Positions 395 to 57,188 of a DNA stretch of 64,000 bases are shown one piece after another. Within the stretch, counting starts at the first letter, position 1. Each line of letters starts with the position of its first letter. Source of the DNA: Linanthus parryae (Eukaryota; Streptophyta; Magnoliopsida; Ericales; Polemoniaceae); assembly GCA_023055425.1 (NCBI GenBank), contig JALGPY010000010.1, forward strand, positions 21,406,363 to 21,470,362. Reading direction: 5' to 3'. The notes beneath the pieces are model-generated. The model was not told the origin of the DNA and did not search any database. It saw only the letters and a program-made list of their open reading frames with translations. The position numbers were made by a program, and so were the translations under genes.

Positions 395-1021
395 TGTGCA
401 CAAGAGATTCCGGCGGGGAGACCTCCGTGTACACCGTATGTAGAGGATCAGAGATCGCACAGGAAGAGTTGGGTTGTGTGTAGGGAAAGAGTAAGGCAGT
501 AGTAATGTCTGAGAGAGAGACAGAGGTTTGGCAGAGCTTCCGCGTATGGCTAGTGTGTCCTCCTTTGTATGGAAAGGTTAACGTCCTATATATAGCAAAG
601 AACGTGACCGTTGTAGTGTGGTTAATGCGCCCATTAATGGCGGCTTAATTAGCTTAACCATAACGGCACGTTCGTCCGAGTATATAGGGACCGTTACAGC
701 ACGTTGTGCGCGAATACCGGAACCGTTACGAGGTTGACCGGGTTTGACCGGATTGACCGAGTTTATGGAGCTCGTGCCATAAATCTCTCAAAACAGTTAC
801 TAAAGGTCGCGTGCGAGCTTGACTCGCACGCGACATGGCTTACTCTAGCCTCCAAACCACTAAGTCCCTACAAGTCCCGTGAAGTGGTATGCGAGGGCTC
901 TGTCTCGTAGCCCCCACATTGATCTGCTCGGCTGGTGATCCAGTGTGTGTGGAGCACAATATGGTGTGCTGGATGGTTGCCACGTGGCCAAGATCTGCTA
1001 GCTCAGAAAGCACTATCTACA
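395..1021 (-). repeat. 3' LTR of element A (left copy)
   Basis: 627 bp, starting TGTGCACAAG and ending CTATCTACA on the plus strand, nearly identical to 14697-15321. Because the element is on the minus strand, this copy is the 3' LTR and carries the polyadenylation region of the element RNA. A TATA-like CTATATATAG lies at 586-595. Confidence 0.95.
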
Positions 1022-1033
1022 TTAGCCCCCTTT
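1022..1033 (-). promoter_or_regulatory. Polypurine tract of element A
   Basis: On the minus strand this reads AAAGGGGGCTAA directly against the 3' LTR. A purine run at this place primes plus-strand DNA synthesis in LTR retrotransposons. Its position confirms the minus orientation of the element. Confidence 0.8.
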
Positions 1034-1749
1034 CTGCGCGTGAAGGCTCATAGCTGCCTAGACTTCCATGTGCGGAAACCAACATACGCGTCGCCGCCAC
1101 GCACCAATTCAAATACGGGTAAGTTCAGCCCCCGTGCGTGCCATTATGACCTAAAACCCCTAGAGTCGTGACGTCTGGCCTTTAGGGTTTTAGGCGTGAC
1201 GTCAGCTTGTCCTGTGATTGCGCGATTCGACGGTGACGGTTGCGATTCGACTACTGAAAGGACGCAACCCTTCATTGTTTTTGGATAAATACTCTGCATT
1301 CTCCATTGTTGCAAAGCATCACTTCTTTTATCTTAAAGTGAATGATACCCGGAAGTCTTCGAGAGCAGATTCAGATAATCAATCACCAATTCAGAACTGC
1401 AATTCGTCTTCTTCAACTGTGCGTATCCAAGCAGGCTTCACAGAAACAAGGTTGGCCTTGTTTAATTTCGATTTAAAATACAAGTGTATGCCTTGAACTG
1501 CGTTGAATATGTAAACCCATATAATCTGTTGAAACTTGTGAAGAAGCTTCAAGCTTTGGACCCAATTGCGGCTTAATCCTTCAATAATAAGGATTTTGGA
1601 TAGGGTTTTGAAATCCCTGATAATGCAACCCTCTAATTTCTGAAGTTGATACCAGAAACTGTTCATCTTTCTTTCCATAGATCTTGAATCTCGAAATTCA
1701 AACTGAGTGTGGCATATTTCTCCCCCTTTTTTCTTGCTTTTCCGCAGGA
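1034..1749 (+). promoter_or_regulatory. Presumed promoter and 5' leader of the antisense PMD gene
   Basis: About 700 bases without a convincing protein. A TATA-like GGATAAATAC lies at about 1283. Just before the ATG at 1750 is a pyrimidine-rich stretch ending in CGCAG at 1747, which looks like the 3' splice site of an intron in the 5' leader. Element B has a comparable leader (57189-57846) with GATTATTTAAACCC at about 57515. This is inference from position; no transcript evidence is available here. Confidence 0.35.
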
Positions 1750-3630
1750 ATGGCCAAGACAAAAGGAACCAAATCCACCAAGGAGACGAAGAGATACCTG
1801 ATCTTCCACAAGCTTTGTGGCGAAAAGCCCCCTATCTGGGTGGCAAAGATTTCTATCACGCAAAGGGTTAAGGCGAAGAAATTGCCTGCTTCTGTCCCCA
1901 ATGAGGGTTTGTTAACACTAACTCCCCCAGTTAACTCAGCCTTGCTCGAGTTGATTGGCTCCGAGGACGTGGTTCGATTGGGAATCGAAAATGGGTACTT
2001 CCCCTATGCTGCGATTTCCACCAAAGATTTTGTTCAGAAATTGGACTACATGGACGAGTGGATCGACCATGTGTTGACCGATCACGCTGCGACTCTTAAT
2101 GAGGCCGGCGTATACTTCGCTGTTCGTTCTATGAAGGGTGCTGCCGTGAAGCTGGACCAGTCCATGCTTCTAAACCTTCTTTCCCGCTATTCGCCTGCGA
2201 CTCACACATTCCACTTTGCTGAGTTTGAGGCTGCCCCCACACTCGAGGACGTGCATATGCTGTACGATCTGTCTCCCATGGGTGAAGTGGACCCTTTGAG
2301 TCCTTTAAGGACGGCTGCAGAGATTGCTTTGTACACGCAGATGGAAGAATGCCTTTCAGAGGTGAAGAAGATCTCCACCCGGTGGACTACTACCAAAGCC
2401 CTTCCGAACTGGCAGTTGGTTGATACGTCTGCGAAGAATACCTGGAACAAATGGTTGCAGTACTTCTTTCGTGACTACGCGAACAGCAGTATCACCAAAA
2501 AGCTTCTGAGTGAGGACCCGGAGGCCAAAAATTATGTGGAGGGTAAAGGCTATCACTTGACCCTTTGTGCTTTCCTCTGTGCATGGCTGTCGCGCTACTT
2601 AATCGATGGTCACCCGCATGATGGGGTCTTCTACCACGTTCTGCCGCTTGCTGTGAAGCTCGCCCTTGGCCAGAAAGTCGCACTCGGACCCTTGGTCTTG
2701 GGCACATTGTATTACAGATTGGATCAGTTAGTTGTGGCTATGAAGGAGTCGCGTAGCCGCCTCGACATACTGACTTTTGTCAACATTTCCTTCTTGACGA
2801 TGTGGGTCTTCGAGCGATGGCCATCCTATGCCCCAACTGCTCTTAAGCCCAACAAGTGGTGTCCCCCAGGCGAGACGGATGAGCGTAACAGTGGCAGAGC
2901 TGCGAGGTGGTTCGGAGCGAACAATACCAAGTGCGCCTGGAGCCTGATCTGCGACAAGCGGCAAGAGTTCACTGCCAGGCCCTATGCCACGCGCATTGAG
3001 AACGTGCGATGGTTTCCAAAGCTATATCCTTCTAAGGGTGTTGTCTTTTCAGAAGAGCTCCTCTTCGAAGAGGGATCGAACTTCCACGAGCGCTATCGCG
3101 AGTTCTTTTGCTGGTGTCTGCGAGGTTCCCTTCCTGCTCTCGCAGAGCATATTCGTGAGCTCGCGCCAAGGTATGAGAGGATTACCGTGGATGTTGACCC
3201 CACTCGAGTTTCTCCCCAGTTCGGCTTTGATGCGGTGGCACCATCAATCTGGCCCCAGTCCATTATCAGAGGTTGCTATAAGCGCTTGCTAACAAAGGAG
3301 TGCAAGACAGTCTTCTTGAACAATCTTCCCTTCGAGCAGCCTGCGGGTAACCGCGAGGGCGGTTGTTCCCAAAACTGGCTCGCATACTGGGTTGCCCAGC
3401 AAACGAGGATCGAGACACAGTCGGCCGCACAGCCGAGTAGAGCTCCCTTGATCAAAAGAAACTCTTTTCCGTGTCGCCCCAATTGCAGTCTGAGCGAGTC
3501 TGAGTATGGTTTCTACTCATTGTTGGATCATGAGAACCATTTGTGCCCTGACGTCATTCTGAAGGAAAAGATCGTCGCAGTTAAGAAAGGCGACTCGCAT
3601 GTCATCAGATATAGCGAGACATTTGCTAAG
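1750..3630 (+). CDS. Exon 1 of antisense PMD gene: plant mobile domain
   Basis: 627 codons with no stop, starting MAKTKGTKST and ending with splice donor AAG|GTAAGC at 3631. The frame also opens upstream to an ATG at 1684, but a splice-acceptor-like CGCAG at 1743-1747 favours the start at 1750. Recognisable PMD-type features are the region VVRLGIENGYF, LDYMDEWIDHVL, FHFAEFEAAPTLEDV, YFFRDYAN, LALGQKVALGPLVLGTLYYRLD and MWVFERWPSYAP. Element B gives LTLGQKIALGPLVLGSFYYRLD and MWVFERWPTYAP at 58750-58920, so the domain is conserved between two independent insertions. The catalytic or binding function of PMD is not established. Confidence 0.85.
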
Positions 3631-3708
3631 GTAAGCAACTTTTTCCGCGTGCATTAAGCTTCTTGATTTCCACATGTTGATGCCTTTATTCTATACTGTT
3701 TGCTATAG
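3631..3708 (+). other. Intron 1 of antisense PMD gene
   Basis: Donor GTAAGC at 3631 and acceptor TATAG at 3708. An alternative acceptor GTGCAG at 3720 also keeps the frame. Element B has acceptor AATAG at 59797 before the same conserved RFASGDRS residues, which favours 3708. Confidence 0.7.
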
Positions 3709-4189
3709 TGTCATGTGCAGAGATTCGCATCTGGTGATCGTTCCAAGTCGTTGGTTAACACCATTGTTGCCACCAAAAGGCAAGGACAGTCGTTCCAGCT
3801 AGCATCGAGGATGGACCCCGAGGTCGAAACCAGGATTCGCGCAGTCATGAACGCTTTTGCTGACTCGCTGATAGATAATGCTCCGGCCTTGTCTCCGCCC
3901 AGAGATAATCCATCTCCTCCAGTGACTGCGGCACCGAGAGCGAAGAGACCCCGGCAGAAGGGAATTACAATATCTTCCCCTAGGAGCGCTCCAACTTCTC
4001 CTCCAACAAAGTCCCTTTCTGCCAAGGACAAAGGCAAAGGTCGCATGCCCAGTAGAGCGCGGAAGGAGCTCGCAGTTGAGACCTTCATTCTGTTCAACCA
4101 GGAGGAAGAAGAGGAGAGGCCAGAGCCCAGAGAAGGTGATGAAGAAGAAGAAGAAAGAACAAATGTGATACATGAGGAAGAATCAGGAG
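3709..4189 (+). CDS. Exon 2 of antisense PMD gene: basic/acidic linker
   Basis: Begins CHVQRFASGDRS. Residues RFASGDRS are shared with element B at about 59810-59835. The exon is rich in Ser, Pro, Lys and Arg, then turns strongly acidic (runs of Glu), and contains an RKEL segment. It ends at donor GAG|GTACCT. Low-complexity charged linkers of this kind are typical between folded parts of nuclear proteins; localisation is inference only. Confidence 0.65.
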
Positions 4190-4265
4190 GTACCTCTATC
4201 GCGTTTCCCTTCTCATTATCGTAACTCTTTTGCAATTCTTTCTTAAGCCAATCGTTTCTCCGCAG

Positions 4266-4907
4266 ATGATGATGATGATGATGAGACCATCGGTGGCCTT
4301 TTGGCCAAGAGACAAAAGAGTGATGCCCATTCTGACATTCCAGACGATCCCATAAGCGAGGACGTTTGCGCCGAGTCCCGAAAGACAGTCGCGGAAGCTG
4401 CTGAGAGAAGAAGGCAGCGCGAAGAGGAGGAGCTCGAACGTGTGAGACAGCGGAGCCTCGAAGAGCAACATGTTGACGACTTAGTGCGTCCAGCTGACGA
4501 GGAAGATGTGCTTCCCAAAGAGGTGGCTCCTCAGGCGGAGGAGGAGGATGCGGCTGCTCTGGAGCAAGCCCAAGCAGATTTTGAAGAAATCGCAGGCGGC
4601 GATAAAGGTGAGATCTTCAATCTCGCAGTAACTTATAGAGATGTTGTAGTGGGTGCGTTAAAGCATGGTGTGTCAAAGGCTGACATTCGCCGTTGGCTAG
4701 TAGACAAGTGCGAAGAACCTTCAGGTAATCATTTGATCGATGTGCATAGACCAGACCTTAGCGACTTGAAACAGAATCATGACTGGTTTCTTCGCATCCA
4801 AGGTCATGCTCATTTTAAGGACCTGCTTAATGAGGACACACTAATAGGGCATGGTTCCAAGTCTTTAGTGTATGACGAAGATACTGCAATCCCACCTTCT
4901 CGTGGAG
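4266..4907 (+). CDS. Exons 3-4 of antisense PMD gene
   Basis: Follows acceptor CCGCAG (4265) and opens with a run of Asp codons (GAT repeats at 4267-4284). It then has a coiled-coil-like Arg/Glu-rich stretch and the segment VVVGALKHGVSKADIRRWLVDKC, which matches IVTGALYHGVPICDIRKWIRDQC of element B. A likely 78-bp intron (4725-4802, GTAATC ... CCAAG) sits where element B has a clear intron (60615-60687). Its length is a multiple of three, so the frame stays open with or without splicing. Donor GAG|GTGCTT ends the exon at 4907. Confidence 0.65.
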
Positions 4908-4989
4908 GTGCTTGCTCTTAGCTTTAGCAAAAGATAATAAAATAATGTACAATACGAGTTACCTCATACTATCGCATTTTGCATCGCAG

Positions 4990-5478
4990 GTACTGCTGAA
5001 GAACCTGTGCCGGAGCAAAGAAGTCAACCTTCTGCGTCCTATGTCCCAGTGCCGAGTTCTCATACCGAGAAGCCCGTCGCAGCTACTGAATACGCAGGAG
5101 AGCCTTTTGAGGACATCATCGAACTTTCTGATGATGCCGAAGCTGACGCTGTGCTAATGGAAGAAGATGCCCGTATTGGCGCTGAAGAAGTAAGAACAAG
5201 TACCGTTGACGCGTCCGCATCTGAGAGCGTCCCTCGCTAAGGAACTTCAGCTGTCACTTCGCCTCCGGCGATGACTGAGTCGGCGGCACCTCTTCCTGCG
5301 TGGAGCTTTTGGGGCTCGCAGGTTGGGAATGCAGTCGCAGCTGGTGCGGCTTATATTCTTCCTCCTAACTATGAGGGGTTAGAGCTCGCAGCTGACAGGA
5401 GAGCTATGGAGCGAGGGCAGTCTTCGACCACTCCAGCAATGCGCATCCCTTCTCTTCGTGAGATTCTTGAAGGAACTG
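4990..5478 (+). CDS. Exon 5 of antisense PMD gene, with stop
   Basis: Starts after acceptor ATCGCAG at 4989 and ends at donor GAACTG|GTAAGT. Element B has the same GAACTG|GTAAGG donor at 61431. The encoded stretch is acidic, then includes PLPAWSFWGSQVG and PSLREILEGTG. One in-frame TAA lies at 5238-5240. The frame resumes at once, so this looks like a recent nonsense change rather than an exon boundary. Confidence 0.65.
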
Positions 5479-5559
5479 GTAAGTAGAGACTTGCTGTTGG
5501 CATCTCGCGTTATTCATTTGCGAGTTTGATAACATAACTTAGCTTTGACATTGCTTTAG

Positions 5560-6035
5560 ATTTGAAGCAAACTTATGTGGATTGGCTAATTCGGATGCGC
5601 CTCACCTACCCCCGATCATTTGCGAGATCTCTGGAGATAGGGCCCTTTGACAGGAGGCTGTTTCTTAACGAAGCCATTTGGATTTTGGAGCAGCTGTCTG
5701 CGGCCACGCCTGTGACCATTTCTGTCCAGAGTGCTGAATTGCTTTTTGGCATGTGCCAAAATCTCATGGCCAAAGTTCAAGGCAAGCTGGGTTTCAATTT
5801 TCTTATGAAAAGAGTTACCTTGATTCGCGCGGCCACAACTTTGAAACTCGGCCACCAAAATCTCGCAGCTGAGAAGTAGAAGGTGGAGCAGCAAAAGAAA
5901 AAGGTTGACGAAGCTCTGAAGCTCTATCACCAGATGAATGCCAGGTGCGAGCAATTGAAGCAAGAAGTGGAGCAGGTAGAGAAGCTGAGCCATCAGTTCG
6001 CGCCCCATGACTCCTTGATCAAGAATTTGCTTTGA
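5560..6035 (+). CDS. Exon 6 of antisense PMD gene: helical region and coiled coil, with stop
   Basis: Starts after acceptor TGCTTTAG at 5559. It encodes a helical segment (DWLIRMRLTYPRSFARSLEI..., LGFNFLMKRVTLIRAA), and after an in-frame TAG (5877-5879) a Lys/Glu/Gln-rich coiled coil that ends in HDSLIKNLL before TGA at 6033. Element B has the equivalent exon at 61488-61988 and ends with GDSLLKDSFED. The matching ends support 6035 as the original stop. Confidence 0.65.
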
Positions 6036-6446
6036 ATTTTTTCTTTTGAAGAGTAGCAAGGAAATAGCTGGAACATTAGTGTAATGCGGAAACATTAATG
6101 TAATGTTGCTAGGGTTTCTCCCCCCTTTTTTTTTAACAAAAGAATGGACGTGCCCGTTTTGCCCTTTCCGGGATTTGATGGAATATCTCTGTGCATATCC
6201 CATTATGACATCAGCAATTGATTATCTGCTTGATTTTCGCGCTAATTTCTCGGAAGATAAGCACGCTTTCCTTGGGAAGTCCATCCGAATCATGACTATC
6301 CGTCATTAATTAGGATACGCCACTGAATCGTCGTAGCCTTTAGTAGGGTAATTGATCGTTACCGCTTTTCAAGGCGTAAGAGATTGACCTTACCCTCTTT
6401 TCGAATTCTGCTGACTCATCTTAGCAACTGAAGAGTCTCCACAAGG
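6036..6446. other. Spacer between antisense genes
   Basis: AT-rich spacer with no believable protein. A T-run at 6125-6134 lies about 90 bases after the stop of the antisense gene, so the 3' end of its transcript probably falls here. No clear polyadenylation signal was picked out. Confidence 0.5.
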
Positions 6447-6458
6447 TCTATATAAACC
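6447..6458 (+). promoter_or_regulatory. TATA box of a second antisense unit
   Basis: TCTATATAAACC on the plus strand, inside a block conserved with element B (62700-62760). Both copies share GCTGACTCA, a gap, AAGAGTCTCC, then TATATAAA and a pyrimidine-rich stretch including TTGCCATTT / CTGCCATTT. Conservation of a TATA box with its flanks suggests a second plus-strand promoter inside the retrotransposon. Confidence 0.6.
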
Positions 6459-6479
6459 CTGTCTTTGCCATTTGAGTTC

Positions 6480-7096
6480 TTTATCCCAAAAATGTGCTCT
6501 GCCGTGAGTCCTTACGACTGCTGGCTTTAACGCTTGTTTTTTGTTGATTCATGGCAACTCCAAGTTGTGAATCCTGAGTTTGCGCTTTGTGCTATAGAAA
6601 TAGTTTCCAAGATCCGCTTTATGAGGCTTATTGCTCTTTATAACCATCATAAAGAAGATGGAGATGATATATCATGTGTGTTCGAAGAATTTTCTTCGTG
6701 TATTATGTGTGCAGGTCATGTTTCCGGCCGCCTCCCGGTGAGGTGCAGCGCCGTAGTGACCGTGCTACCGATTCGTAATGAACGGCGGAATTCTCCTCCA
6801 GCATCCCTGGAGGAGGATCTTACTGCCTCCATGTTCGTGAGCTCAGGGTGGCGAACCGTTGCGTTCATCCCCGTCTACAAGGAGCCCTTGCCCTTTGGAG
6901 CTTCTGCTTGCCTGTTGAACGCCGGAACCGGTGGTTCCTCAAGCACATCTCATGGGATGTTGATCTGACAAGGGCCTTGTCAAATACTGGGATCTTGAAC
7001 GTATGGCTTCATGTGGCTCTTTGGAGCAGGTCCCTACTCGCAATAGATGTTCGGCCGCAGATCTACGTATCGCATAGCCGGTGTTATGACCGTTGA
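6480..7096 (+). pseudogene. Second antisense transcription unit of element A, decayed
   Basis: Downstream of the TATA box the sequence matches element B through GTGCTATAGAAA. There B has an ATG (62916) but A has ATAG, so the start codon is lost here. A weak open frame of 144 codons covers 6534-6968. A splice-acceptor-like TGTGCAG lies at about 6710-6716, followed by a GC-richer segment (6720-7100) unlike the surrounding AT-rich DNA. I do not recognise any protein domain. It may be a non-coding or short-peptide transcript. Confidence 0.4.
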
Positions 7097-7189
7097 GTTC
7101 ATCCTTTCTCAATTAGGATTCCCTCGGTGTGTCACTGCTGGCTTGTCAGTTACTTTTCGAATGCATTGTAAGCCATGTTGGCTGCGTAG

Positions 7190-7481
7190 TTAGATTTGAG
7201 CTTTTTCGCTTGTAAGCTGCTATCTAGACATATAAATTGTAAGTCTTTTTGACTCATAATGATAAATGGCTTTTGTATCATCTGCTGTCTTGTTACAACA
7301 AAATACAGTTTCGCATGCGTATCGGCCTATTTCGCCTTGTGTAATGCTATATACATGCTTCGCATTTGCTATCTGCCTCATCAGTTCGCAGATATTTTAT
7401 TAGATCGTTCGAGATCGTGTTTTCGCAGCTGTGCCATCTTGGCAAATGGGCTTATGATTTGCTTTCAGATTCAAATGTAAG
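7190..7481. other. Degenerate repeat-like spacer
   Basis: Contains scattered single copies of the CTATCT...AGATAG-like core (for example GCTATCTAGACATATAAA at 7219), older and more diverged than the array that follows. No gene. Confidence 0.5.
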
Positions 7482-8094
7482 TGCTATCATATCAGATAGA
7501 CCTTTGTAGATCACTTGAGATCATTTCGTATGATGTTGCTATCACAATAGACAGGCTTAAGGACGATTGTTAGATCGCATTCGTATATCGCTGTTATCAC
7601 AGCAGATAGGCTTGAAAGATTGTTTCAAGATCATGTTCGCATATGCTGCTATCGTGGCAGATAGGCTTTAGAAGATCAATTAAGATCATTTTGCATAGGC
7701 TGCTATCATGACATATAGGCTTAGAGGATCAATTAGGATCGCATCTGCATAGGCTGCTATCGTGACAGATAGGCTTAGAGGATCAATTAAGATCTCATTT
7801 GCATAGGCTGCTATCGTGACAGATAGGCTTAGAAGATCAATTAAGATCGCATTTGCATAGGCTGCTATCGTCAGAGATAGGCTTAGATGATCGATTAAGA
7901 TCGCATTTGCATAGACTGCTATCGTAACAGATAGGCTTAGGTGATCGATTAAGATCGCATTTGCATAGGCTGCTATCGTAACAGATAGGCTTAGATGATC
8001 GATTAATATCGCATTTGCATAGGCTGCTATCGTAACAGATAGGCTTAGATGATCGATTAAGATCGCATTTGCATAGATTGTCATTGTGGCGGAT
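7482..8094. repeat. 54-bp tandem repeat array of element A
   Basis: About twelve units. The central ones are spaced exactly 54 bp (7702, 7756, 7810, about 7863, 7917, 7971, 8025, 8079). The unit has a dyad core GCTATCGT-RAC-AGATAGGC followed by GATCRATTAAGATCGCATTTGCATAG. Outer units are more diverged. Because 54 is a multiple of three, a long minus-strand frame appears through the array; I treat it as an artefact. Element B has similar CTATC...GATAGGCTT units at 62250-62450 and 63440-64000. Confidence 0.85.
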
Positions 8095-8304
8095 AGCCCT
8101 TTGTTAGCAGTAATAACAAACTAAATAAAGCAACGTTAACAGCTGGAAATATGAAGTTCCCATTTTGGAGAACCCTTTTATTATAATGCTCTCATGTGGG
8201 AGAGATAAGATTACAATTTTCTCATATGGGAGAAGAGATTGTGTAAATCATAGCCATACAAGACATGAAGCAACGTTATAATAAAACACATGAAATGAGA
8301 GAAG
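8095..8304. other. Spacer after pol of element A
   Basis: Short AT-rich spacer between the end of pol (8305) and the tandem array. Nothing coding was recognised. Confidence 0.5.
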
Positions 8305-11300
8305 TCAAGGATAGTACTTCTTAATCCAGCGCATGTTGACTGAACTCGGGGTTGAGGTTGTTTCGTGCAACCTTCGTATGCTGCAGTAGCCACTGTCAAA
8401 GACTTCTGTGACTTCGAAGGGTCCTTCCCAATTGGCTGCAAACTTTGGGTGAGCTGCTTCTCGCATGCAGTGGTCAGACGCACGCAGGACCAAATCTCCA
8501 ACTGCGAAATCTCTTCGCTGGACTGACATGTTGTAAGCACGAGCGATCCTTTCTTGATACCGCTTGTTGGTCCTTTTAGCTTGTTCTCGCTTTTACTCCA
8601 GCAAGACTAAGTCATGATCACGTTGATTTTCGTAGAGTGCGTGGAAGGCCAATCTTGCCGAATTGACTCTCACCTCAGCAGGTACCACGGCCTCGGCCCC
8701 ATAGCATAGTAGGAACGGTGAGGCCCCCGTGGGTGTCCTTCGAGAAGTTCGGTAGGCCCACAGAGCTATACTTAGAGAATCAGCCCACTTCTTGTGGTCA
8801 TCTGCGACCATCTTGCTCAAAATCCTCAACAGCGTTTTGTTGGTCGCCTCGGCTTGCCCGTTCCCCTTCGGGTAGTAAGGGGTGGAACATATTTGCCTGA
8901 TGTTGTACTCTGCTAATTTTGCAGCAACCTGGCGATTAACAAAAGGAGTACCATTATCTGAAAGAATGGTTTTTGGAATTCCGAACCTGCATATGATGTT
9001 TTCTTGGATGAAGTTGACCACAGCTAGCGCATTTGCCGTCTTCAGTGGTATTGCCTCCACCCATTTGGTAAATAGCTCGGTTGCGGTGAGAATAAAATGA
9101 TTCCCGTGCGAAGTTGGTTAAATGGGACCAATGAAGTCCAGCGCCCATGTGTGAAATGGCCATGGCGTTCCCAATGCATGTAGATCCACCGCGGGAGCGT
9201 GCACTAGGTTTCCTTTAAATTGACACTCCTGGCAGCGTCGTACTTTGGTGCGGCAATCAGCCTCCATCGTAGGCCAGAAATATCCGATTGAGAGGAGCTG
9301 CCTGCATAATTTCACACCTCCTTGGTGTTCCACCTGATGAGAAAGGTCCATGACTTCTTGTGCTTCGCTGCCGTCTAGACATCGCAGAAAGTTGCCTTCG
9401 TGACCTCTTCGCCAAAGCAGGTTTTCTTGTACTATGTATCGAGATGCTTTCCTCTTCAATTTCTCAGCTTCCTTTCTCGATTCGAGTAAGGTGCCCTTAG
9501 TGAGAAAGTCAAAGAGTGGCTTCCTCCAATCCGTGTTATCATCGGTTAGGGCGATGAGTAGAGAATCTTTAATCAGTGCGCAACTCTCGCACTTCCCTTG
9601 TATCAGGGCAGCAGCTGTTGACATATCCGGCCAATGAATGCCATATCTCTGAGCCTTTCAGTAGATTGACACCTCGCTTTCTCCGCAAGCATGCTGGTGA
9701 ATCTTCTATAACAACAGCTGTCCCTCTTGCTCGGAGACGCATCGCATGAGTATTCCGCCAGGACCCTTGTAGTAAAGGGTGTTGTCATGTATGCAATACC
9801 CTTTTGTGAGTGCCCAGCTTTCACTCCTTGTGCCTTCTGTAATAGCTTGCAAAATTGTTTTCCTCCAATCTGTATCATCCATGCGTTCATCGTCGCACGC
9901 GTCTTCTGCCAACGCCGACGATGTCCGCACTTCGATGGAGATCCTTGCGGGACATTTTTCTGTACTAACCTTGGATCCCAAGGTGGCCAAAGCATCTGCA
10001 TGTCTGTTGTCCGCTCGGGGCTTGTGCTCGTACCTCACATCGCAGAATTGCTGCACTAGCTTTTGTACCAGAGTGCGATAGGACAGAAGGTTGATCTCCT
10101 TCAAACCGTACTCGCCCGATGCTTGCTTGACGATCAACTTGGAGTCTCCCATGACCGTCAAATTGCTTACTTCCAAAGCCTTCGCTGCACGCAGCCCCGC
10201 TATGAGGGCTTCATATTCTGCCTCGTTGTTGGTGACTGCGAAGTCAAGCTTTGCGGACATCTGTATGACCTCCCCATCTGGCTTGGTCAAGACTATCCCA
10301 ATGCCTCCGCATTTCCTTGTTGACGACCCGTCGAAATGGAGTGTCCAATAGGGTACATCGATCGCATAGATCTCAGGTCCCTCGAGTTCTTCTTCAATCA
10401 CGGGCTCATGACTGTTGTCGGGGAATTGTGCTAGCAAATCCGCTACCGCCTGCGACTTGATCGCTCGCGGTCTCGCGCATGTGATATCGTATTGAGAAAT
10501 GGTCATGTACCATTTCGCCAACCTTCCTCCAGGAGCAGTGTGAGTTAACAGATATCGTATGGGGTCACTTTTCGTAACCACCACCACTTTGTGCGACGCA
10601 AAGTAGTGTTTCAATTTCCCTATTATAAAGAACAAAGCAAGGCAGTGACGCTCGATGTCTGTGTACCTTGATTCTGCGGGCTGCAAAATGCGAGAGATGT
10701 AGTAGATGGGCCTCTCCTGACCCTCGTACTCATGAGCCAGAAGTGCTCCTATGGATTTCCTGGTTGACGTCAGATACAGTAAAAGCGGTGATCCCAGCTG
10801 AGGTGCAATCATTATTTTTGAAGATGTCAGTAGTTCTTTCAGCTTCCCGAACGCAGCTTCGTGCTCTGGGGTCCAGTTGTATGCAGCATCTTTCTTGAGA
10901 AGATTACTGAAGCAGAAAGTAATCTCGGCAATTGCAGGGATGAACCTTCGCAGATATGATAGCTTTCCCAAAAATGTCTTCAAGGCACTTTGGTTATGGG
11001 GCGGCGTCATGCTAGTGATGGCTGACACTTTCGCAGGGTCGGGCTCGATTCCTTGGCGATGGACCACGCATCCCAAGAACTTCCCTGATGTTACCCCGAA
11101 CGCGCATTTCATAGGGTTCATTTTCAGCTAGAAGCGTCTGCATCTGTTGAACACTTTCCGCAAATCTGCTAAGTGATCTGCTTCCTGCCTGGATTTGACT
11201 AAAAGGTCGTCAACATAAAATTCCACTTCCTTGTGCATCATGTCGTGGAACAGAGCCATCATGGCCCGCTGGTAGGTTGCACCCGCGTTTTTGAGACCGA

Positions 11301-12069
11301 ATGGCATCACTGTGTAGTTGAACACTCCCACCGGGGTGATGAATGCAGTTTTCCGCGCGTCTTCAGGGTCCATCTTGATCTGGTTGTACCCGCTGAAGCC
11401 GTCCATGAAGCTGAACATGCGATGGCCCGCTGTTGAATCGATAAGCAAATCGATGTTGGGGAGTGGAAAATCGTCCTTGGGGCTGAAGCGATTGAGATCT
11501 CGAAAGTCCACGCAGATGCGAAGCTGTCCGTTCTTCTTCTCTACTGGCACGATGTTGGCCAGCCATGTTGGATGGTGATTCGGCTCTATGAACTTGGCAT
11601 CCAGGAGTTTGACAATCTCCTGTTTGATCTTCACATTAAGCTCCGGTCTGAAGCTTCTTGTGCTTTGCTTTATTGGTTTAGAACCCGGGATGATGTCTAA
11701 ACGATGCATAGTGATGCTTGTATCCAGACCTGGCATCTCATCATACTCCCATGCGAACACGTCCTTGTATTCAGTTGGGAGCTGTAGCAGTCCTTGCTCT
11801 TCCTCGCTTGTGAGGTCCGCACTTAGAAAGACTGGCCTCTTCTTTTCCTCGTTCGGGCTGAGGAACACTTCCTTTAGCTCTTGCTTCTGTGGTCTGGGTC
11901 TGTCTTCCATGCATTCAGGTGCTTCTTTGAGCTTCTCATCTGGAGTGCCCTGTATTGGCCTTTCCGTGAGCGCGATCTGCTCGATTTTGATCGATTTGCC
12001 CAGGGATATCCCCATGCCCGTGTGAGGACATCCCCGCATACCTTCATATGCGATAGCACTTCTTCCCAT
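8305..12069 (-). pseudogene. pol: pol of element A: RT, two RNase H, integrase; five stops
   Basis: One reading frame from 12069 down to the stop at 8305-8307 with five in-frame stops (11128-11130, 9706-9708, 9658-9660, 9118-9120, 8593-8595) and no frameshift. It overlaps the end of gag-protease by 26 bases in another frame, so a frameshift or internal start would be needed. Order: RT with VDFRDLN and the catalytic YVDD (about 11207-11221); a first RNase H (about 10800-10530); a second, archaeal-type RNase H with HFDGSS (about 10340), NNEAEYEAL and MGDSKL, ending ADALA; integrase zinc finger with HQVEH and CQEC; integrase core with DFIGP, SDNG and NGQAEA as the D, D and E positions; and a C-terminal FAVGDLVLR module. 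The dual RNase H assigns it to the Tat lineage. It copies element RNA and inserts the DNA. Confidence 0.9.
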
Positions 12070-14680
12070 TGGCGTAGAAGCTCTCTATCTCCTTGCCTTC
12101 AGGGTCACGCTTTGCAATTCTCTTGAGAGTGTACACGTTCTTTCGATAGTATGCGATTCGCGGCGCCTCTTCGCGTGTAGGCGGCTTCTCTTTGGCGTCT
12201 TCCCTTGTCACCATTACTCCCGCAGGTGACTGGTCCTTGATGTCCTCCCATAGAGGTAAAGGAGTAGGGTTGAATGGTCCCGGTGTTTGCTCGTCCGCCA
12301 TCTCGGTGAACCACACTGCCTCGCTAAGATGTGCTTCATCCAAGTTGAATGGATTCGTTGAAGCTGGTATCTCGACTACTCTGTCGTTCCAGATAGCTTT
12401 CATGACTTGGTGAGCTGTTGAAGGAACTGCGTCGAAGCGGTGAATCCAGGCTCGACCTATGATCATGTGGTATGTAGTGTTCGCATCTATGACATAGAAC
12501 TTTGCTGAGCACTTGATTTTGCCAATTTGAACGCCCAGGCGAATCCATCCGATCGTCATTCTAGAGTCGCTTCCAAATCCCATCAATGGAGATGGACGCC
12601 TGACTATCTTGTGCTCGGGAATCCCTGCTAGCTTCAGTGTGTGGAGCGAAACGACATTGACCGCTGCTCCTCCATCGACGAATGCTCGTTTAAACTCGAC
12701 GCCATTGATGATGGCCATCACGTACAGAGGCCTCTGGTGGCTCGCATCTGTCTTCTTGTCGCTGGCAGAAAAGGTCATAATCTTTTCTGTAGAGCGAGAC
12801 GCCCTGATGACTTTCCCGTTGGAAACTACAAGATCCTCCTCGTAGTCTTCCGCTATCCTCAAGATTGCTTTCGTCATATCTGTCCGGCACTTCTCAGAGA
12901 AGTTCATTTCGTCGAAGAATCTGCTAAAGCCGTGCGACCCCTTCATCTGATCGGCACGTTCATCTTCTGTGTCCATGCTGTAGTCCTCGTCATCATGGAC
13001 TTCGGCAATGATGGGCAGACCATCCTCTGCGACTTCTTCCAAGTCCACAATCGAGATCATGGCGACCTCTTTGCCTTTTGGGTCTCGCTCCGCATGGGCA
13101 GGAAGTGGGTTGTTGCGCACATCCTTCCTGTGGTCACTGACGATCAGCTCGCCATTCTTCATCTTCTGGTCGAATGTAAATCTGAGCTTCTTACATTCCG
13201 CTGTGGGGTGCATGACCTTGCCGTGGTACTCGCACCACTTGGGGTCCCTCACCATCTCCTTGGAGGGTATCTTCTCGAGCGGCGGTAGGACACCGTCCTT
13301 GCGCCACTGCCTGCAGAGGTCGCTTGCCTCCTCCACCGAGCATGGCAGAGGTGGTACGTCGAAGTTCACAACTTTCGCTTGCTTCTGGGGTGAAACTGTA
13401 TTGACCTCAGCTTCACGTCCCCTTTTGTAACTGAATCTCCCGATCTTATAGGTGGTGCCGCTCGAAGATCGCTCCGGAGCGTTCTTCTTTTTCTGCCTCT
13501 CGACTATAGGCTCGATGTTCTTCGTGCATTCAATTAGCTTTGAAAACGTAGGTGTTTGAAAATTGATGAGCATACCTTTGTATTCGTCTCGCATGCACTG
13601 CAGGCATATCTCTACGAGTCGGCTTTCGAGCATTGGATCTTTGCACTCCAAGGACTTCGCCCTGAATTTCTTGATGAAAGTGATCCCGTCCTCCTCGCGC
13701 TTCTGATACATCCGCGAGAGATGGATCATCGTCACCTTTTCTTCCATCTGAAAGAACTTGGTGTAGAACTTCTGGACCATGTCGTCCCAAGTCTTCACAG
13801 ATCCGGCTTCCAATGTTCGGTACCACTTGTACGCTACGTTCCCCAAAGATTTTGAGAACTCTCGCATCAGCAGTTTGGGATCAGCTCTGTATGGCCCCAT
13901 GACATCGATGAAACGCATGACGTGCTCATGAGCGTTCCCGTTGACATCCTCGAACTTGTCCCATTTAGGAGCCTTATACCCCACTGGGTTAGGCATGAGA
14001 TATATCTCCCGCGGGATGGGTGGATCGTTGTCTAGCTTCGGGATGATGGTATCCGCGAATGATTGGTGAGCCAGAATAGTGTCCATGCGCTTCTGCAGAG
14101 ACGTCATGCATTCTGGAATGCTTCCCTCAGTAGCAGAAGGAGGGGTTGCTGCAGGCGGAGGTGACACATATGCCGTCGGAGGATTGGGAGCATATTGGCT
14201 GCTTGCGTTGCCCCAGATCGCCGTTGACGGAGGCAAGGGATACTGCGACGCCGAATTACGTATCAAAGTCGGAGGCTGAGGAGTATGAGCAGTGAGAGGC
14301 AACATCTGAGCTGTTGACCCCTGAATTGAAGGGAGCTGCGTAGTCGCCGGTGGAGTCTGCAGATTAGGGTTGGGAGGTGTGGTGGACACTCCCAATCCTG
14401 GAGCGGTAGGGCCTCCTCCTCCTTGAGAGACGGCGGTGGTCGTTGAAGGATTTGGCGCAAGGGTGCCCAGAACGGCCAAGATCCGTTCTAGCTGCGCAGA
14501 CTGGGCTTTGAGAGCTTTTGCCTGGCCTTGGACGGTGGCGTCCAAGGATTCTAGCGTCGGTGCCTCGCTGGGGGTCGTAGGAGTACGGCGGGTTTCCTCC
14601 CCTGAGGCAGCTTCGGTGGAAGGCGATCTATTGCTAACATCATCCTCCTGAGACATGGTTGCTTTTGTTGGTAAGTTCAC
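12044..14680 (-). CDS. gag: Gag-protease polyprotein of element A
   Basis: This is an intact 878-residue ORF starting 17 bases inside the right LTR/PBS. Residues 1-80 are polar with a short helix. Residues 80-200 are Pro/Thr/Gln-rich. About 225-400 is the retrotransposon gag domain (PKWDKFEDVNGNAHEHV, LGNVAYKWYRTL, ITFIKKFRAKSLECKDP). About 481-500 is a CxxH...H...C motif (CEYHGKVMHPTAEC), a zinc-finger-like element common in this lineage. About 655-790 is an aspartic protease whose active site reads VDGGAAVN rather than DTG/DSG; D-G-G variants occur in plant Tat elements. Gag packages the RNA and the protease cuts the polyprotein. With no stop in 878 codons, this is the best preserved gene of the element. 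Confidence 0.92.
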   Translation of the reverse strand: MNLPTKATMSQEDDVSNRSPSTEAASGEETRRTPTTPSEAPTLESLDATVQGQAKALKAQSAQLERILAVLGTLAPNPSTTTAVSQGGGGPTAPGLGVSTTPPNPNLQTPPATTQLPSIQGSTAQMLPLTAHTPQPPTLIRNSASQYPLPPSTAIWGNASSQYAPNPPTAYVSPPPAATPPSATEGSIPECMTSLQKRMDTILAHQSFADTIIPKLDNDPPIPREIYLMPNPVGYKAPKWDKFEDVNGNAHEHVMRFIDVMGPYRADPKLLMREFSKSLGNVAYKWYRTLEAGSVKTWDDMVQKFYTKFFQMEEKVTMIHLSRMYQKREEDGITFIKKFRAKSLECKDPMLESRLVEICLQCMRDEYKGMLINFQTPTFSKLIECTKNIEPIVERQKKKNAPERSSSGTTYKIGRFSYKRGREAEVNTVSPQKQAKVVNFDVPPLPCSVEEASDLCRQWRKDGVLPPLEKIPSKEMVRDPKWCEYHGKVMHPTAECKKLRFTFDQKMKNGELIVSDHRKDVRNNPLPAHAERDPKGKEVAMISIVDLEEVAEDGLPIIAEVHDDEDYSMDTEDERADQMKGSHGFSRFFDEMNFSEKCRTDMTKAILRIAEDYEEDLVVSNGKVIRASRSTEKIMTFSASDKKTDASHQRPLYVMAIINGVEFKRAFVDGGAAVNVVSLHTLKLAGIPEHKIVRRPSPLMGFGSDSRMTIGWIRLGVQIGKIKCSAKFYVIDANTTYHMIIGRAWIHRFDAVPSTAHQVMKAIWNDRVVEIPASTNPFNLDEAHLSEAVWFTEMADEQTPGPFNPTPLPLWEDIKDQSPAGVMVTREDAKEKPPTREEAPRIAYYRKNVYTLKRIAKRDPEGKEIESFYANGKKCYRI

Positions 14681-14693
14681 GTCGGGTTCACCA
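14675..14693 (-). promoter_or_regulatory. Primer binding site of element A
   Basis: On the minus strand TGGTGAACCCGACGTGAAC begins three bases inside the 5' LTR. It starts with TGG, complementary to the CCA end of a tRNA, as expected for a minus-strand primer site. I could not assign the tRNA from memory. It is not the initiator-Met site used by the copia elements in this window. Confidence 0.75.
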
Positions 14694-14696
14694 AAA

Positions 14697-15321
14697 TGTG
14701 CACAAGAGATTCCGGCGGGGAGACCTCCGTGTACACCGTATGTAGAGGATCAGAGATCGCACAGGAAGAGTTGGGTTGTGTGTAGGGAGAGACTAAGGCA
14801 GTAGTAATGTCTGAGAGAGACAGAGGTTTGGCAGAGCTTCCGCGTATGGCTAGTGTGTCCTCCTTTGTATGGAAAGGTTAACGTCCTATATATAGCAGAG
14901 AACGTGACCGTTGTAGTGTGGTTAATGCGCCCATTAATGGCGGCTTAATTATCTTAACCATAACGGCACGTTCGTCCGAGTATATAGGGACCGTTACAGC
15001 ACGTTGTGCGCGAATACCGGAACCGTTACGAGGTTGACCGGGTTTGACCGGATTGACCGGGTTTATGGAGATCGTGCCATAAATCTCTCAAAACAGTTAC
15101 TAAAGGTCGCGTGCGAGCTTGACTCGCACGCGACAGGGCTTACTCTAGCCTCCAAACCACTAAGTCCCTACAAGTCCCGTGCAGTGGTATGCGAGGGCTC
15201 TGTCTCGCAGCCCCCACATGGATCAGCTCGGCTGGTGATCCAGTGTGTGTGGAGCACAATATGGTGTGCTGGATGGTTGCCACGTGGCCAAGATCTGCTA
15301 GCTCAGAAAGCACTATCTACA
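14697..15321 (-). repeat. 5' LTR of element A (right copy)
   Basis: 625 bp, TG...CA, nearly identical to 395-1021. In the minus orientation this copy is the 5' LTR and promoter. Hand comparison with the other LTR finds about 11 substitutions and a 2-bp GA indel (near 520 versus 14820). Confidence 0.95.
14886..14895 (-). promoter_or_regulatory. TATA box of the element A LTR promoter
   Basis: CTATATATAG inside the 5' LTR, palindromic around its centre, at the same place as 586-595 in the other LTR. It is the most likely TATA box for the minus-strand gag-pol RNA. Confidence 0.55.
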
Positions 15322-15326
15322 CCTTT
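15322..15326. repeat. Right target-site duplication of element A
   Basis: CCTTT directly after the LTR end CTATCTACA, identical to 390-394. Confidence 0.9.
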
Positions 15327-19752: not shown

Positions 19753-20619
19753 TCATATAGGGTTTCTATCACAGTAAGTGTACTCAGAGTAAGGATCATA
19801 CGAGGCGGCAACGTCATGCATATATTCTTCTCTGTTAGTATATGTGTTCTGGCTCCAACACGCATTTTGTTGAAGATCTTGGTCATAAACTGCATAAGAA
19901 CTGCTACAACCAGCACCTTCATGAATAATGTATTGTACAGGCCCCATCCCCTGGTAAGAGGCTAATGGTATGGTAGAGGCCGGCAGTGTTGAACAAGAAT
20001 CATCTGGTGTCTGAGGACACAAGGTCTGGAGGTCCGCGGTTTCAGTTTCTTGCTTTACTTGGTCTGGAGCTCTCTTCTTCCCAAGTCTATCAGACACGTG
20101 CTTGGTGGATTTTGTATCATCTCTTTTGATTTTGCACAAGACGATATCGCTACTTCCACTAATCCCGGTAAGGCTGAACTCCTCCATGTACCAGCACCCT
20201 CTTACACTCCTGCAATCGAAGGACTCATCGTTAACTTCAAACAAAAAGTTCTTCTTCACACCAATAAGACTGTTGTTGTCGTCAAAGATGCTCTGCGCCT
20301 TGGCCTCGCCATGCCAAGTCCCCACGCCCGCCCTCCTTGAAACCCTCGTCTCGCCCGCTTTCTTTAGCGTGGTGAACACATAAAGAGTGCTGTACGTCTT
20401 GTGTTTCATTGTCTTGTCAACCCACGTAGACTTTGTGTGGACTTGCCACGGGTCTTGGCTTGTGAAGTTCAACCAGGGTGATGTTGCATAGGGATTGCGA
20501 TTTATGAAGATACCATCACACGGTAGGGGTCGTTTCAACGCTTGGTTGAGAAGAAAGTTATTGACCAACTCATCGTCGGTTGGCAAGAAGTGGAGGCCGG
20601 GGATGTTTCTCACGGCCAT
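19753..20619 (-). CDS. NAC-domain transcription factor, divergent and intronless
   Basis: A 288-residue protein in a single exon. The NAC DNA-binding domain spans about residues 6-165: PGLHFLPTDDELV (subdomain A; the usual form is PGFRFHPTDEELV), DPWQVH, LYVFTTLK in place of the usual WYFFT, GTWHGEAKAQ, LIGVKKNFLFEV, WYMEEFSL (143-150) and VLCKI (160-164). The C-terminal half (residues 166-288) is Ser/Thr/Tyr/Gln-rich, as in NAC activation regions, with no membrane segment. NAC proteins bind DNA as dimers in the nucleus and regulate development or stress responses. Canonical NAC genes usually have two introns in the domain; this gene has none, and its domain is divergent at several consensus positions. 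It could be a lineage-specific expressed member or a retrocopy. No stop or frameshift was seen. Confidence 0.88.
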   Translation of the reverse strand: MAVRNIPGLHFLPTDDELVNNFLLNQALKRPLPCDGIFINRNPYATSPWLNFTSQDPWQVHTKSTWVDKTMKHKTYSTLYVFTTLKKAGETRVSRRAGVGTWHGEAKAQSIFDDNNSLIGVKKNFLFEVNDESFDCRSVRGCWYMEEFSLTGISGSSDIVLCKIKRDDTKSTKHVSDRLGKKRAPDQVKQETETADLQTLCPQTPDDSCSTLPASTIPLASYQGMGPVQYIIHEGAGCSSSYAVYDQDLQQNACWSQNTYTNREEYMHDVAASYDPYSEYTYCDRNPI

Positions 20620-20708
20620 GGGTGATCAATCTCAGAATAGAAAACTTTGTAATGGGAAAGGTTTTAGTTCTTTATGCGCTACGAGATCAAATAGTGAGTT
20701 ACACTGGG

Positions 20709-42544: not shown

Positions 42545-42576
<32 letters not shown>

Positions 42577-42583
42577 AGAGGAA

Positions 42584-42618
<35 letters not shown>

Positions 42619-42640
42619 AGAAGATGAAGAAGAAGAAGAA

Positions 42641-42671
<31 letters not shown>

Positions 42672-42872
42672 AAGAAGAAGAAGAAGAAGAAGAAGAAGAA
42701 GAAGAAGAAGAAGAAGAAGAAATCTCTAAAGCCAATCATTCCAGAAATTGAAGATCAGGCTGAAGAAGAGACTGCTGGTGTGAATGAAGAGGCTGCAGAA
42801 TAACAGTCTAATGATGAAGACAGTGAGGAAGAAGAAGGAGATCAGGATGGACATGAAGACCCAACCCCATAA
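40800..42872 (+). pseudogene. Extra ORF after pol of E1, expanded GAA tract
   Basis: Starts MSSRRDSNRIKMVGGSKPS. Related to the E2 ORF (TVEAKVLFTILMRCIFPREHSKEL; here LNVEAKVLFTILMRCIFPREHSKEL) and ends with an acidic tail. Frameshifts and stops are present. The Lys-rich segment, which is only a short run in E2, is expanded into a long purine triplet tract at 42391-42720. Confidence 0.7.
42391..42720 (+). repeat. (GAA)n/(AGG) purine microsatellite, about 330 bp
   Basis: Almost pure AGA/AAG triplets with interspersed AGG, all purines on the plus strand. It lies in the Lys-rich part of the extra ORF. E2 at the same place (about 35645) has only a short A/AAG run. Confidence 0.92.
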
Positions 42873-56569: not shown

Positions 56570-57188
56570 TGTGCACAAGGAAATCCTTCAGATAGATACA
56601 AGTGTGCACCTCAAGTAGAGAATAGGAACACAGAGAGATGTAGGGTGTGAGTAGGGTGAGGGTAACCAATGGTAACTGTGAGAGAGAGAGAGACAGCTTA
56701 ATAGCAAAGCCTTCGGTAAGTCAAGAAGAACTAGTTTGTCGCAACGGATGGCTAATGATCCTCTATATAGAGGGGAAGTGACCGTTGAGGGGGGGGGGGG
56801 GGGGTTAATGCACCATAAATGGCGGCTTAATGTTAGCCCCCGTAACGGCACGTTCGACCGTGTATAGAGGAACCGTTAGGCACCTGACCATACATACCGG
56901 AGACGGTTATGAGCTCAATCCGGGTTTATAGGGCACGGCCATTAAGTATCTCAAAGTAGTTAAAAAGGGTCGCGTGCGAGCTTTGTTAGTGCACGCGCAC
57001 GACGGGCCTTACCCTAGCCTCTAAACCACTAAGTCCCTACAAGTCCCGTGTTGGTACCCGAGAGCCCTGTCTTGCAGCCCCCAAGTGGATAAGCATAGGT
57101 AGTTATCCGGTGTATATGGAGCACCGAAGGGTGTGCAGGATGGTCGCCACGTGGCTGTGATATGTCTGTCTGGAAAGAACTATCTACA
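56570..57188 (-). repeat. 3' LTR of element B
   Basis: 619 bp, clearly homologous to the LTR of A but diverged throughout, so A and B are distinct members. Contains TATA-like CTCTATATAGAG (56761-56772) and a run of about 17 G at about 56788-56804 that A lacks. Confidence 0.88.

Follow-up and report, generated by a model that had tools for sequence, protein, structure and literature searches.

Organization of the locus

The window, by which we mean the whole 64,000-nucleotide stretch of Linanthus parryae DNA analysed here, contains a plant mobile domain (PMD) gene within a Ty3/gypsy LTR retrotransposon of the Tat type. The retrotransposon (element A, 395-15321) has its gag-pol genes on the minus strand and was delimited by an LTR pair, a target duplication, a polypurine tract, a PBS-like site and protein domains. 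The target-site duplication CCTTT is found at 390-394 and again at 15322-15326. In element orientation, the 3' LTR (395-1021, minus strand, TG...CA) and the 5' LTR (14697-15321, minus strand) agree in 614 of 627 alignment columns, an identity of 97.9%. A polypurine tract (1022-1035, minus strand) adjoins the 3' LTR, and a putative PBS, TGGTGAACCCGACGTGAAC (14675-14693, minus strand), recognized from sequence only, lies 3 nt inward of the 5' LTR.

The minus strand encodes, in order, a gag-protease frame running from stop to stop (12044-14749; Retrotrans_gag, E = 6.1e-7), a reverse transcriptase frame from the ORF list (11128-12084; RVT_1, E = 1e-22), an RNase H and, after it, a second one of archaeal type (9706-11127; RT_RNaseH and then RVT_3 at residues 265-382 in the profile search), an integrase zinc-binding region (9118-9657; Integrase_H2C2, E = 9.2e-11) and an integrase core (8593-9117; rve, E = 3.7e-13). 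The domain order is thus RT, RH, aRH, H2C2, rve. Aspartyl protease matches in the gag-protease frame were below the cut-off in the profile search, and a haloarchaeal RNase HI model matched residues 262-380 with an E-value of 2.8e-22 that was nevertheless under the model's own cut-off. It should be noted that the first residues of the gag-protease frame fall within the LTR and the primer site. The polyprotein of element A is broken by stops in the window copy. Tandem repeats of 54 bp (7582-8150) lie between the integrase and the antisense genes. The PMD gene occupies the interval from pol to the 3' LTR and runs antisense to gag-pol, and its original placement as an antisense gene inside a Tat-type element is borne out by the gag, RT, two RNase H and integrase domains on the minus strand.

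The extra archaeal-type RNase H beside the normal one, a Tat trait, is present in element A, and its position between RNase H and integrase is the one that characterizes the Ogre and Retand subclades (PMC6317226). Element A also has the PMD extra ORF, an Ogre trait carried by 57% of Ogre elements (Neumann et al. 2019, PMC6317226). However, another Ogre trait, an intron-like gap between the gag-pro and RT-INT frames (mean about 274 bp), is absent in element A, where the corresponding frames, taken from stop to stop in a single damaged copy, have about 40 nt in common, and we therefore did not file the element as Ogre. As in about half of Retand elements, tandem repeats (the 54-bp repeats at 7582-8150) are present between pol and the 3' LTR. 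An antisense Transposase_28 (PF04195) protein occurs in 97% of Retand clusters (PMC11963269); no PF04195 match was found in the antisense pieces scanned from the window copy (exon 1, exon 2, 4268-4921, the ORF at 6531-6968 and four exon 5-6 pieces).

The PMD gene and its diverged relatives

The PMD gene consists of six plus-strand exons. Exon 1 (1750-3630) contains the plant mobile domain, exon 2 (3709-4189) a charged linker, exon 3 (4266-4724) a charged stretch and the LKHGVSKADIRRW segment, exon 4 (4803-4907) 34 complete codons, exon 5 (4990-5478) a premature stop in the window copy, and exon 6 (5560-6035) a conserved C-terminal region and a helical tail. As originally predicted, all five introns have GT/AG ends, the phases are compatible, and the exons sum to 3891 nt, or 1297 codons. 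The assignment of exon 1 to the PMD was confirmed by the PF10536 profile, which matched residues 131-500 with an E-value of 1.9e-27 and 96.8 bits, against a curated cut-off of 34.9. However, the frame is not open throughout and the gene is not intact in the window copy, contrary to the original prediction, as in-frame stops at 5238 (exon 5) and 5877 (exon 6) break it. Both stops are rare in the sample, because glutamine stands at these positions in 36/37 and 34/37 other copies, respectively; the stop at 5238 is common to one other copy of the 37. The normal stop is at 6033-6035, and this terminal TGA is kept in 33/37 copies. The PMD gene is real, and its window copy is damaged.

The coiled coil claimed for the tail fared less well. 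The tail, situated past the second premature stop, shows a weak heptad pattern, equalled in score by 44 of 1000 shuffles, and several Pfam models of the coiled-coil kind match it, all under their cut-offs, which at most weakly suggests a coiled coil. For exon 1, structure prediction that included two partial relatives reached a mean pLDDT of 29.9, a PDB sequence search returned no match at E 0.001, and no match was found in the viral contigs searched.

Upstream of the gene, a TATA-like box (1285-1291, plus strand) is, by its motif, a candidate for the gene's own promoter. The motif also matches upstream of the PMD gene in element B (see below) and in two further relatives, L057 and L058, and copies vary in the 26-bp block surrounding the box (9.4% divergence). 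An acceptor-like CAG (1745-1747, plus strand), with a pyrimidine run ahead of it, directly precedes the start codon. This CAG is kept in 36/36 copies examined and the ATG in 34/36, which suggests a 5'-UTR intron before the start codon, with a donor that is not fixed.

A diverged relative, element B (56570-64000, minus strand), is cut by the window end, and its LTR (56570-57188) is 69.2% identical to that of element A. The PMD gene of element B (57847-61988, plus strand) is placed and oriented with respect to the LTR as in element A, has corresponding introns, is decayed with several stops, and encodes a protein about 41% identical to that of element A. Introns 1, 3, 4 and 5 recur in element B and L057, intron 4 being called by reading the sequences of these two, and introns 1 and 3 also recur in L058; intron 2 is missing in L057. 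Intron 3 of the window copy is 78 nt without a stop and could be read through, a reading disfavoured by the recurrence of its sites in element B, L057 and L058. The conserved LKHGVSKADIRRW segment of the original prediction is present, and its counterpart recurs in diverged copies. The PF10536 score was 77.9 bits for exon 1 of L057 and 30.1 for a 222-residue fragment of element B, the latter under the cut-off of 34.9. Dozens of PMD matches occur in clusters in the same genome. In pairwise comparison, the element A protein is 41% identical to L057, 26% to a clustered PMD gene (L060) and 23% to another PMD gene (L061). One non-autonomous derivative (L059) is without gag, RT and RNase H and retains the PMD gene.

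Inheritance of introns and selection on the protein

Out of 20520 first-look candidates, 70 copies were scored, the window included. The 69 others have 91-94% identity to the window's exon 1, and exon 1 is without a stop in 45/70. We fetched 40 of the 69, namely the best after the window by exon-1 protein score, and 37 of these align across all six exons and five introns (5/37 with large indels). Intron 1 is kept in 40/40 fetched copies, and part of one intron is deleted in 2/37 fully aligned copies. GT donors are kept in 181/183 ungapped cells (of 185) and AG acceptors in 147/150 ungapped cells (of 185); intron 2, whose acceptor falls in a short repeat, accounts for 34 of the 35 gaps at acceptors. 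For GT and AG elsewhere in noncoding stretches, retention is 84% and 85%, and the splice-site retention in the copies is more than chance.

Probes for spliced junctions 1 and 5 matched 0 places each in the host genome, although 37/37 and 36/37 copies, respectively, would have matched them had they been spliced, and the unspliced junction 1 probe matched 322 places. The idea that the introns ride through copying therefore stands. Among the 32 RT-probe places, 13 are 7.6-8.0 kb from a PMD gene among those listed, all 13 on the opposite strand. The excess of PMD over RT probe places (322 vs 32) was rejected as proof of many non-autonomous copies, because the window RT probe has two mismatches with most RT places found.

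Variants common to at least three copies gave synonymous:nonsynonymous:stop counts of 117:23:0 in exon 1 and 114:68:0 in exons 2-6. Private variants are less constrained, with stops among them, and their ratios (0.39 and 0.53) are still below neutral; the two classes differ in N:S (Fisher p = 9.6e-15 and 8.2e-9). For transversions alone, the ratios in the shared class were 0.24 and 0.26. Over 666 pairs of 37 copies, dN/dS was 0.127 in exon 1 and 0.274 in exons 2-6 (0.258, 0.211, 0.502, 0.398 and 0.178 in exons 2 to 6, respectively, with exons 4 and 5 weakly constrained), and pseudo-frames upstream in the same copies, at 0.58-0.99, showed no such selection signal. No exon contains a substitution stop in 15/37 copies, frameshifts not being counted. 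As shared variants are mostly silent and never stops while private ones are looser, the lineage appears to have been selected to encode the spliced protein, and selection appears to have preserved it along six exons across many copies. This selection along the six exons goes beyond what the original prediction could show.

Each of the five other reading frames has shared stops. A minus-strand ORF (3711-4616) is a chance ORF; a coding reading of it was ruled out, since minus-strand frames gain shared stops. Reverse frame 2 looks low in N:S because wobble positions coincide, yet carries 8 and 9 shared stops.

Interpretation and comparison with known systems

The reading we favour, and consider rather likely, takes in the observed anatomy, the inheritance with introns, the selection on the protein and the counterpart gene in a diverged element: an accessory PMD gene of a Tat-type lineage, antisense to gag-pol, spliced from its own transcript. 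Its own promoter and its splicing in vivo are what we infer. A plus-strand transcript, probably starting from the gene's own promoter within 1022-1750, would be spliced five or six times and, where the copy is undamaged, yield a PMD protein of some 1300 residues. The element itself is copied via minus-strand RNA, where the PMD introns are not introns, and for this reason the gene is inherited with them. The lineage would need the PMD protein, as changes that spread are mostly silent and never stops in the sample.

Judging only by the relatedness of its PMD to MAIN/MAIL1, the most likely role of the protein, which we propose tentatively, would be to act in the nucleus and in trans against host silencing. 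Since MAIN/MAIL1 themselves support silencing, the element PMD would have to act differently. All genomic evidence here fits equally well a replication accessory factor, involved for example in nuclear import of the integration complex, integration-site choice or control of its own sense transcription; functions of this kind have been suggested in a review for antisense extra ORFs, which in some cases encode nuclear proteins (PMC7264820). However, PMD relatives of known phenotype act in silencing and gene expression (PMC5418596), and we regard a replication role as somewhat unlikely.

It is improbable that the antisense RNA matters instead of the protein, as a dsRNA or small-RNA source damping the element. 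Tea has 175 PHAS loci at PMD genes (PMC10673657) and PMC7264820 discusses antisense RNA roles, but selection here tracks amino acids in one frame, over six exons and with zero shared stops, while the five other frames have them, and such frame-specific selection argues strongly against antisense RNA as the sole function. Equally improbable is a selection signal produced by choosing copies on protein similarity together with methylation-driven transitions. The copies were indeed the 40 that ranked next to the window among 70 scored from 20520 candidates; picking by exon-1 protein score lowers dN in exon 1, with exons 2-6 unscored but linked, and may explain part of the constraint on private variants, which are also below the neutral ratio. 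In addition, NG86 dS in exon 1 (0.14) is higher than the divergence of the introns (0.073), pointing to a transition effect. However, exons 2-6 played no part in choosing copies, transversions alone gave 0.24-0.26 for shared variants, and the upstream pseudo-frame lacks the signal in the same copies. A recently captured host PMD gene riding as a passenger would account for the host-like exon-intron architecture, and LTR elements are known to capture host genes (PMC7264820). This is the least probable reading, as elements A and B have corresponding introns yet proteins that are only about 41% identical, the value for one PMD gene from a large cluster of this genome is 26%, and dN/dS of 0.13-0.27 is not expected of a passenger.

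More speculatively, and with rather low confidence, antisense placement may let an RNA-copied element own a multi-intron gene that serves as a shield, selected per copy and kept by non-autonomous derivatives such as L059, with host and element PMD in one arms race. If this is true, each copy would defend itself against MAIN/MAIL-type silencing even with enzymes supplied from elsewhere. The evidence for a spliced gene kept by selection makes the element-borne PMD a protein worth testing. Our study also provides an exact gene model for transcript searches, which single-ORF annotation would miss, and suggests a simple rule, namely that introns can survive many copying rounds in a gene that is antisense to the genomic RNA of an LTR element.

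PMD proteins from Ty3/gypsy elements are widespread in angiosperms, and the PMD-A1 and PMD-A2 clades are exclusively Gypsy (Ikeda et al. 2017, PMC5418596); genic PMD may have arisen from elements or the reverse (PMC5418596). MAIN/MAIL1, genic PMD-C proteins and partners of PP7L in Arabidopsis (PMC5418596, PMC7156037), have the domain family in common with the element PMD. However, they are host genes that support silencing, and the element PMD is only distantly similar (26%) to L060, the one clustered gene of this genome with which it was compared. A counter-silencing role for element-made PMD proteins has already been proposed (PMC8616336), and VANC21 of VANDAL21 is a precedent for an element-coded anti-silencing protein (PMC8616336), although it is another protein from another element class (DNA transposon), and anti-silencing was reported there and is only inferred here.

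PMD in Gypsy elements and antisense ORFs had both been published before. With the position and orientation seen in element A, downstream of pol and ahead of the 3' LTR, antisense extra ORFs are described for maize Grande gene23, rice RIRE2 and Silene Retand (PMC7264820, PMC11963269), and a promoter of its own is reported for gene23 (PMC7264820). Retand antisense ORFs are mostly Transposase_28 and were found as plain ORFs, and other antisense extra ORFs are without clear relatives, whereas that of element A is a multi-exon PMD gene. The extra ORFs of PMC6317226 are single ORFs called with getorf, and the words 'intron' and 'antisense' are absent from PMC5418596 though a gene finder was used. 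In contrast, element A carries a six-exon antisense gene with conserved introns and with evidence that selection acts along its exons, a combination that is apparently new.

Structure of the element and of its antisense gene

The plant mobile domain (PMD) gene lies on the plus strand within element A, an LTR retrotransposon at 395-15321 with gag-pol on the minus strand, recognised by its LTR pair, flanking CCTTT and protein domains. The LTRs (395-1021 and 14697-15321, minus strand) match at 614 of 627 alignment columns, and CCTTT occurs at both ends of the element. Next to the 3' LTR is a polypurine tract, and next to the 5' LTR is a primer-site-like sequence starting with TGG. Domain matches on the minus strand comprise gag, reverse transcriptase (RT), RNase H, a second archaeal-type RNase H and integrase, with a protease match below the model's cut-off. 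PMC6317226 describes this order, RT-RH-aRH-INT, for two subclades of Tat, Ogre and Retand. Since some marks of both subclades were present and one of each was lacking, we filed element A as Tat type only.

The originally predicted six exons with GT/AG ends and compatible phases (1750..3630, 3709..4189, 4266..4724, 4803..4907, 4990..5478 and 5560..6035; summed length 3891 nt) were borne out, and exon 1 matched the PF10536 profile (E 1.9e-27). The claim that they form one open frame of 1297 codons was wrong for the window copy, which is interrupted by in-frame stops at 5238 and 5877. Near its N-terminus (1750-1870), two compensating one-base differences from most other fetched copies shift the reading frame of its first few dozen residues. 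Together with the interrupted pol frames, these lesions mark the window copy as a damaged member.

Noncoding sequence from the LTR to a TATA-like box (1022-1281) varied little among copies (1-4% divergence per 26-bp block), with higher values at 1282-1671 (3-12%) and low values again at 1672-1749 (2-3%). A second block resembling a plus-strand promoter was recognised by motif downstream of the PMD gene, at 6404-6456 in A, at 62691-62745 in its diverged relative element B, and at ~6383 and 6607-6650 in two further PMD-bearing sequences (L057 and L058). Its parts are TGACTCA, present in A, B and L058, a GAAGAGTCTCC-like sequence and TATATAA, in that order; behind it come a conserved GTGCTATAG stretch and what may be a short reading frame. 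Another antisense transcription unit, or what is left of one, may lie here. Elsewhere in the window, a piece of a NAC transcription-factor gene (19753-20625, minus strand; NAM PF02365, E 4e-18) is likely a host gene between elements. Nested, partly inverted elements occupy 24500-54850, with many segments 75-90% identical and frames that look copia-like by eye, and a long purine-rich simple repeat at 42200-42800 gives spurious arginine/lysine frames.

Family copies and the inheritance of introns

The 1.51-Gb genome (121 contigs) was searched with the exon 1 protein, giving 20520 first-look candidates, 70 of which were scored, window copy included. Residues 1-626 of 626 were covered by 67 of these and nearly so by the remaining three. 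The 69 other copies were 91-94% identical to the window exon 1, and by our count exon 1 was free of stops in 45 of the 70, window included. Forty of the 69 were fetched in order of best score, and 37 aligned along the whole gene, six exons and five introns. Large gaps or insertions occur in five of these 37, located in exon 2 (L012, L027), in intron 2 and exon 3 (L034), in intron 4 and exon 5 (L022), or, in L020, as an insertion pushing most of exon 6 beyond the fetched stretch. The other three (L029, L032, L040) retain exon 1 with intron 1, do not align downstream and were left out of later counts. A strict motif placed the LTR end and polypurine tract as expected in 33 of the 40 copies; among the seven failures, judged by eye, five start inside the boundary owing to the fetch cut, L014 carries a single-base difference and L035 has LTR-like sequence there.

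The evidence for splicing is indirect. Across the 37 copies, splice sites were retained in 181/183 (GT) and 147/150 (AG) ungapped cells; the corresponding figures for other GT and AG dinucleotides in noncoding sequence are 84% and 85%. The intron 2 acceptor sits in a short repeat where 34/37 cells are gapped; its CAG-ATGATG junction is recognisable in 32/37 copies. Although the exon 1 frame runs into a stop within intron 1, constraint continues through exons 2-6 in the frame that corresponds to it. Directly upstream of the start codon, a conserved acceptor-like CAG (36/36 copies) suggests an additional intron in the 5' UTR.

Introns on the strand opposite to gag-pol were predicted to ride through copying, and the junction counts agree. 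Intron-free probes covered junctions 1 (up to 3 mismatches) and 5 and matched 0 places genome-wide at each, whereas the unspliced control, junction 1 with its intron, matched 322. Had the intron been absent, the probes would match 37/37 (junction 1) and 36/37 (junction 5) fetched copies. Judged by these junctions, the copies spread via minus-strand RNA, not spliced plus-strand RNA.

The gene structure extends to diverged relatives. The LTR of element B (56570-57188) is 69% identical to that of A, and its PMD gene has the same place and orientation, with a protein ~41% identical. Motif and alignment match introns 1, 3 and 5 to those of A; introns 2 and 4 are recognisable from reading the sequence. 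The junction-1 motif was present in 9 of 11 scanned sequences, A and B included and L053 and L058 being the same copy, and was not found in L051 and L056. L057 has introns 1, 3, 4 and 5 and lacks intron 2, introns 1 and 3 were seen in L058, and L052 has the intron 3 donor with no clear acceptor.

Selection on the encoded protein

Nei-Gojobori dN/dS over 666 pairs among the 37 copies, taking exon 1 from 1873 on, was 0.127 for exon 1 and 0.106 for the PMD core. Exons 2, 3, 4, 5 and 6 gave 0.258, 0.211, 0.502, 0.398 and 0.178; constraint on exons 4 and 5 is weak. Control values were 0.58 to 0.99 for upstream noncoding pseudo-frames and 1.5 to 1.7 for shifted exon 1 frames. NG86 dS is inflated by transitions (0.087 at four-fold sites, 0.078 in introns).

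Single-base codon variants, window included, were also sorted by spread, omitting those in exactly two sequences. Variants in at least three sequences numbered 117 silent, 23 replacement and 0 stop for exon 1; the counts for exons 2-6 were 114, 68 and 0. Private, single-copy variants numbered 183, 232 and 11 in exon 1, and 204, 339 and 17 in exons 2-6. The upstream pseudo-frame had 11/34/5 shared and 39/144/9 private. Without the window copy, the shared-private contrast gave Fisher p values of 9.6e-15 (exon 1) and 8.2e-9 (exons 2-6); with transversions alone, the shared-class ratios were 0.24 and 0.26 (p = 0.036 and 0.012 against private). Private variants were below neutral too (ratios 0.39 for exon 1 and 0.53 for exons 2-6), an effect that our choice of copies by protein score would produce. 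The pattern is that of a gene selected during replication of the lineage and then more or less free to decay in each insertion.

Linkage with pol, host genes and published elements

An RT probe from the window matched 32 places. With pairs picked by eye and then measured against 100 of the 322 junction places plus the 70 scored loci, 13 of the 32 lay 7.6-8.0 kb from a PMD gene among the matches listed, all 13 on the opposite strand. One further copy is reduced. In L015 (continued in L059, G000:C2:32501746-32505746), the match to window 7189-9187 is joined directly to 14675-15324, that is, integrase core to primer site and 5' LTR, and PMD exon 1 remains open despite the loss of gag, protease, RT and RNase H. 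In L058, gag-protease and the PMD gene lie on different strands, with no match to RT or integrase between the two (5452-8644); L058 is possibly another non-autonomous type.

The PF10536 search of the genome gave 127 matches, some of them fragments, from 117 scored of 11793 candidates. By our count, 46 of the 127 cluster at C57:126.3-127.7 Mb, 12 at C46:155.0-155.9 Mb and 10 at C2:29.2-29.9 Mb, and many clustered matches are open and full length. The PMD of A is 26% identical to one clustered gene (L060), 23% to another full-length PMD gene (L061) and 41% to that of L057. To judge from these identities, the PMD of the element seems to form an old branch of its own and not to stem from recent capture of these genes.

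Taken together, the PMD gene is a genuine intron-bearing accessory gene of the retrotransposon lineage, and the evidence that selection has acted on it is good; its function is inferred. Within the accessible literature, which did not extend to Steinbauerova et al. 2011, neither a multi-intron antisense PMD gene nor selection on one was found reported, so an earlier report may exist. PMD is the most frequent extra domain of plant Gypsy elements (PMC9289625), and two PMD clades occur exclusively in Gypsy elements, the direction of descent being left open (PMC5418596). MAIN, MAIL1 and PP7L are treated in PMC7156037, phased small RNAs from PMD loci are described in tea (PMC10673657), and counter-silencing has been proposed for element PMD proteins (PMC8616336). 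PMD is carried by 57% of Ogre elements in a study that took single ORFs of 250 or more codons as extra ORFs (PMC6317226), and Retand has antisense ORFs with Transposase_28 and tandem repeats (PMC11963269). Antisense extra ORFs, including Grande gene23 with its own promoter, are described in PMC7264820, which urges a search for antisense and spliced transcripts.
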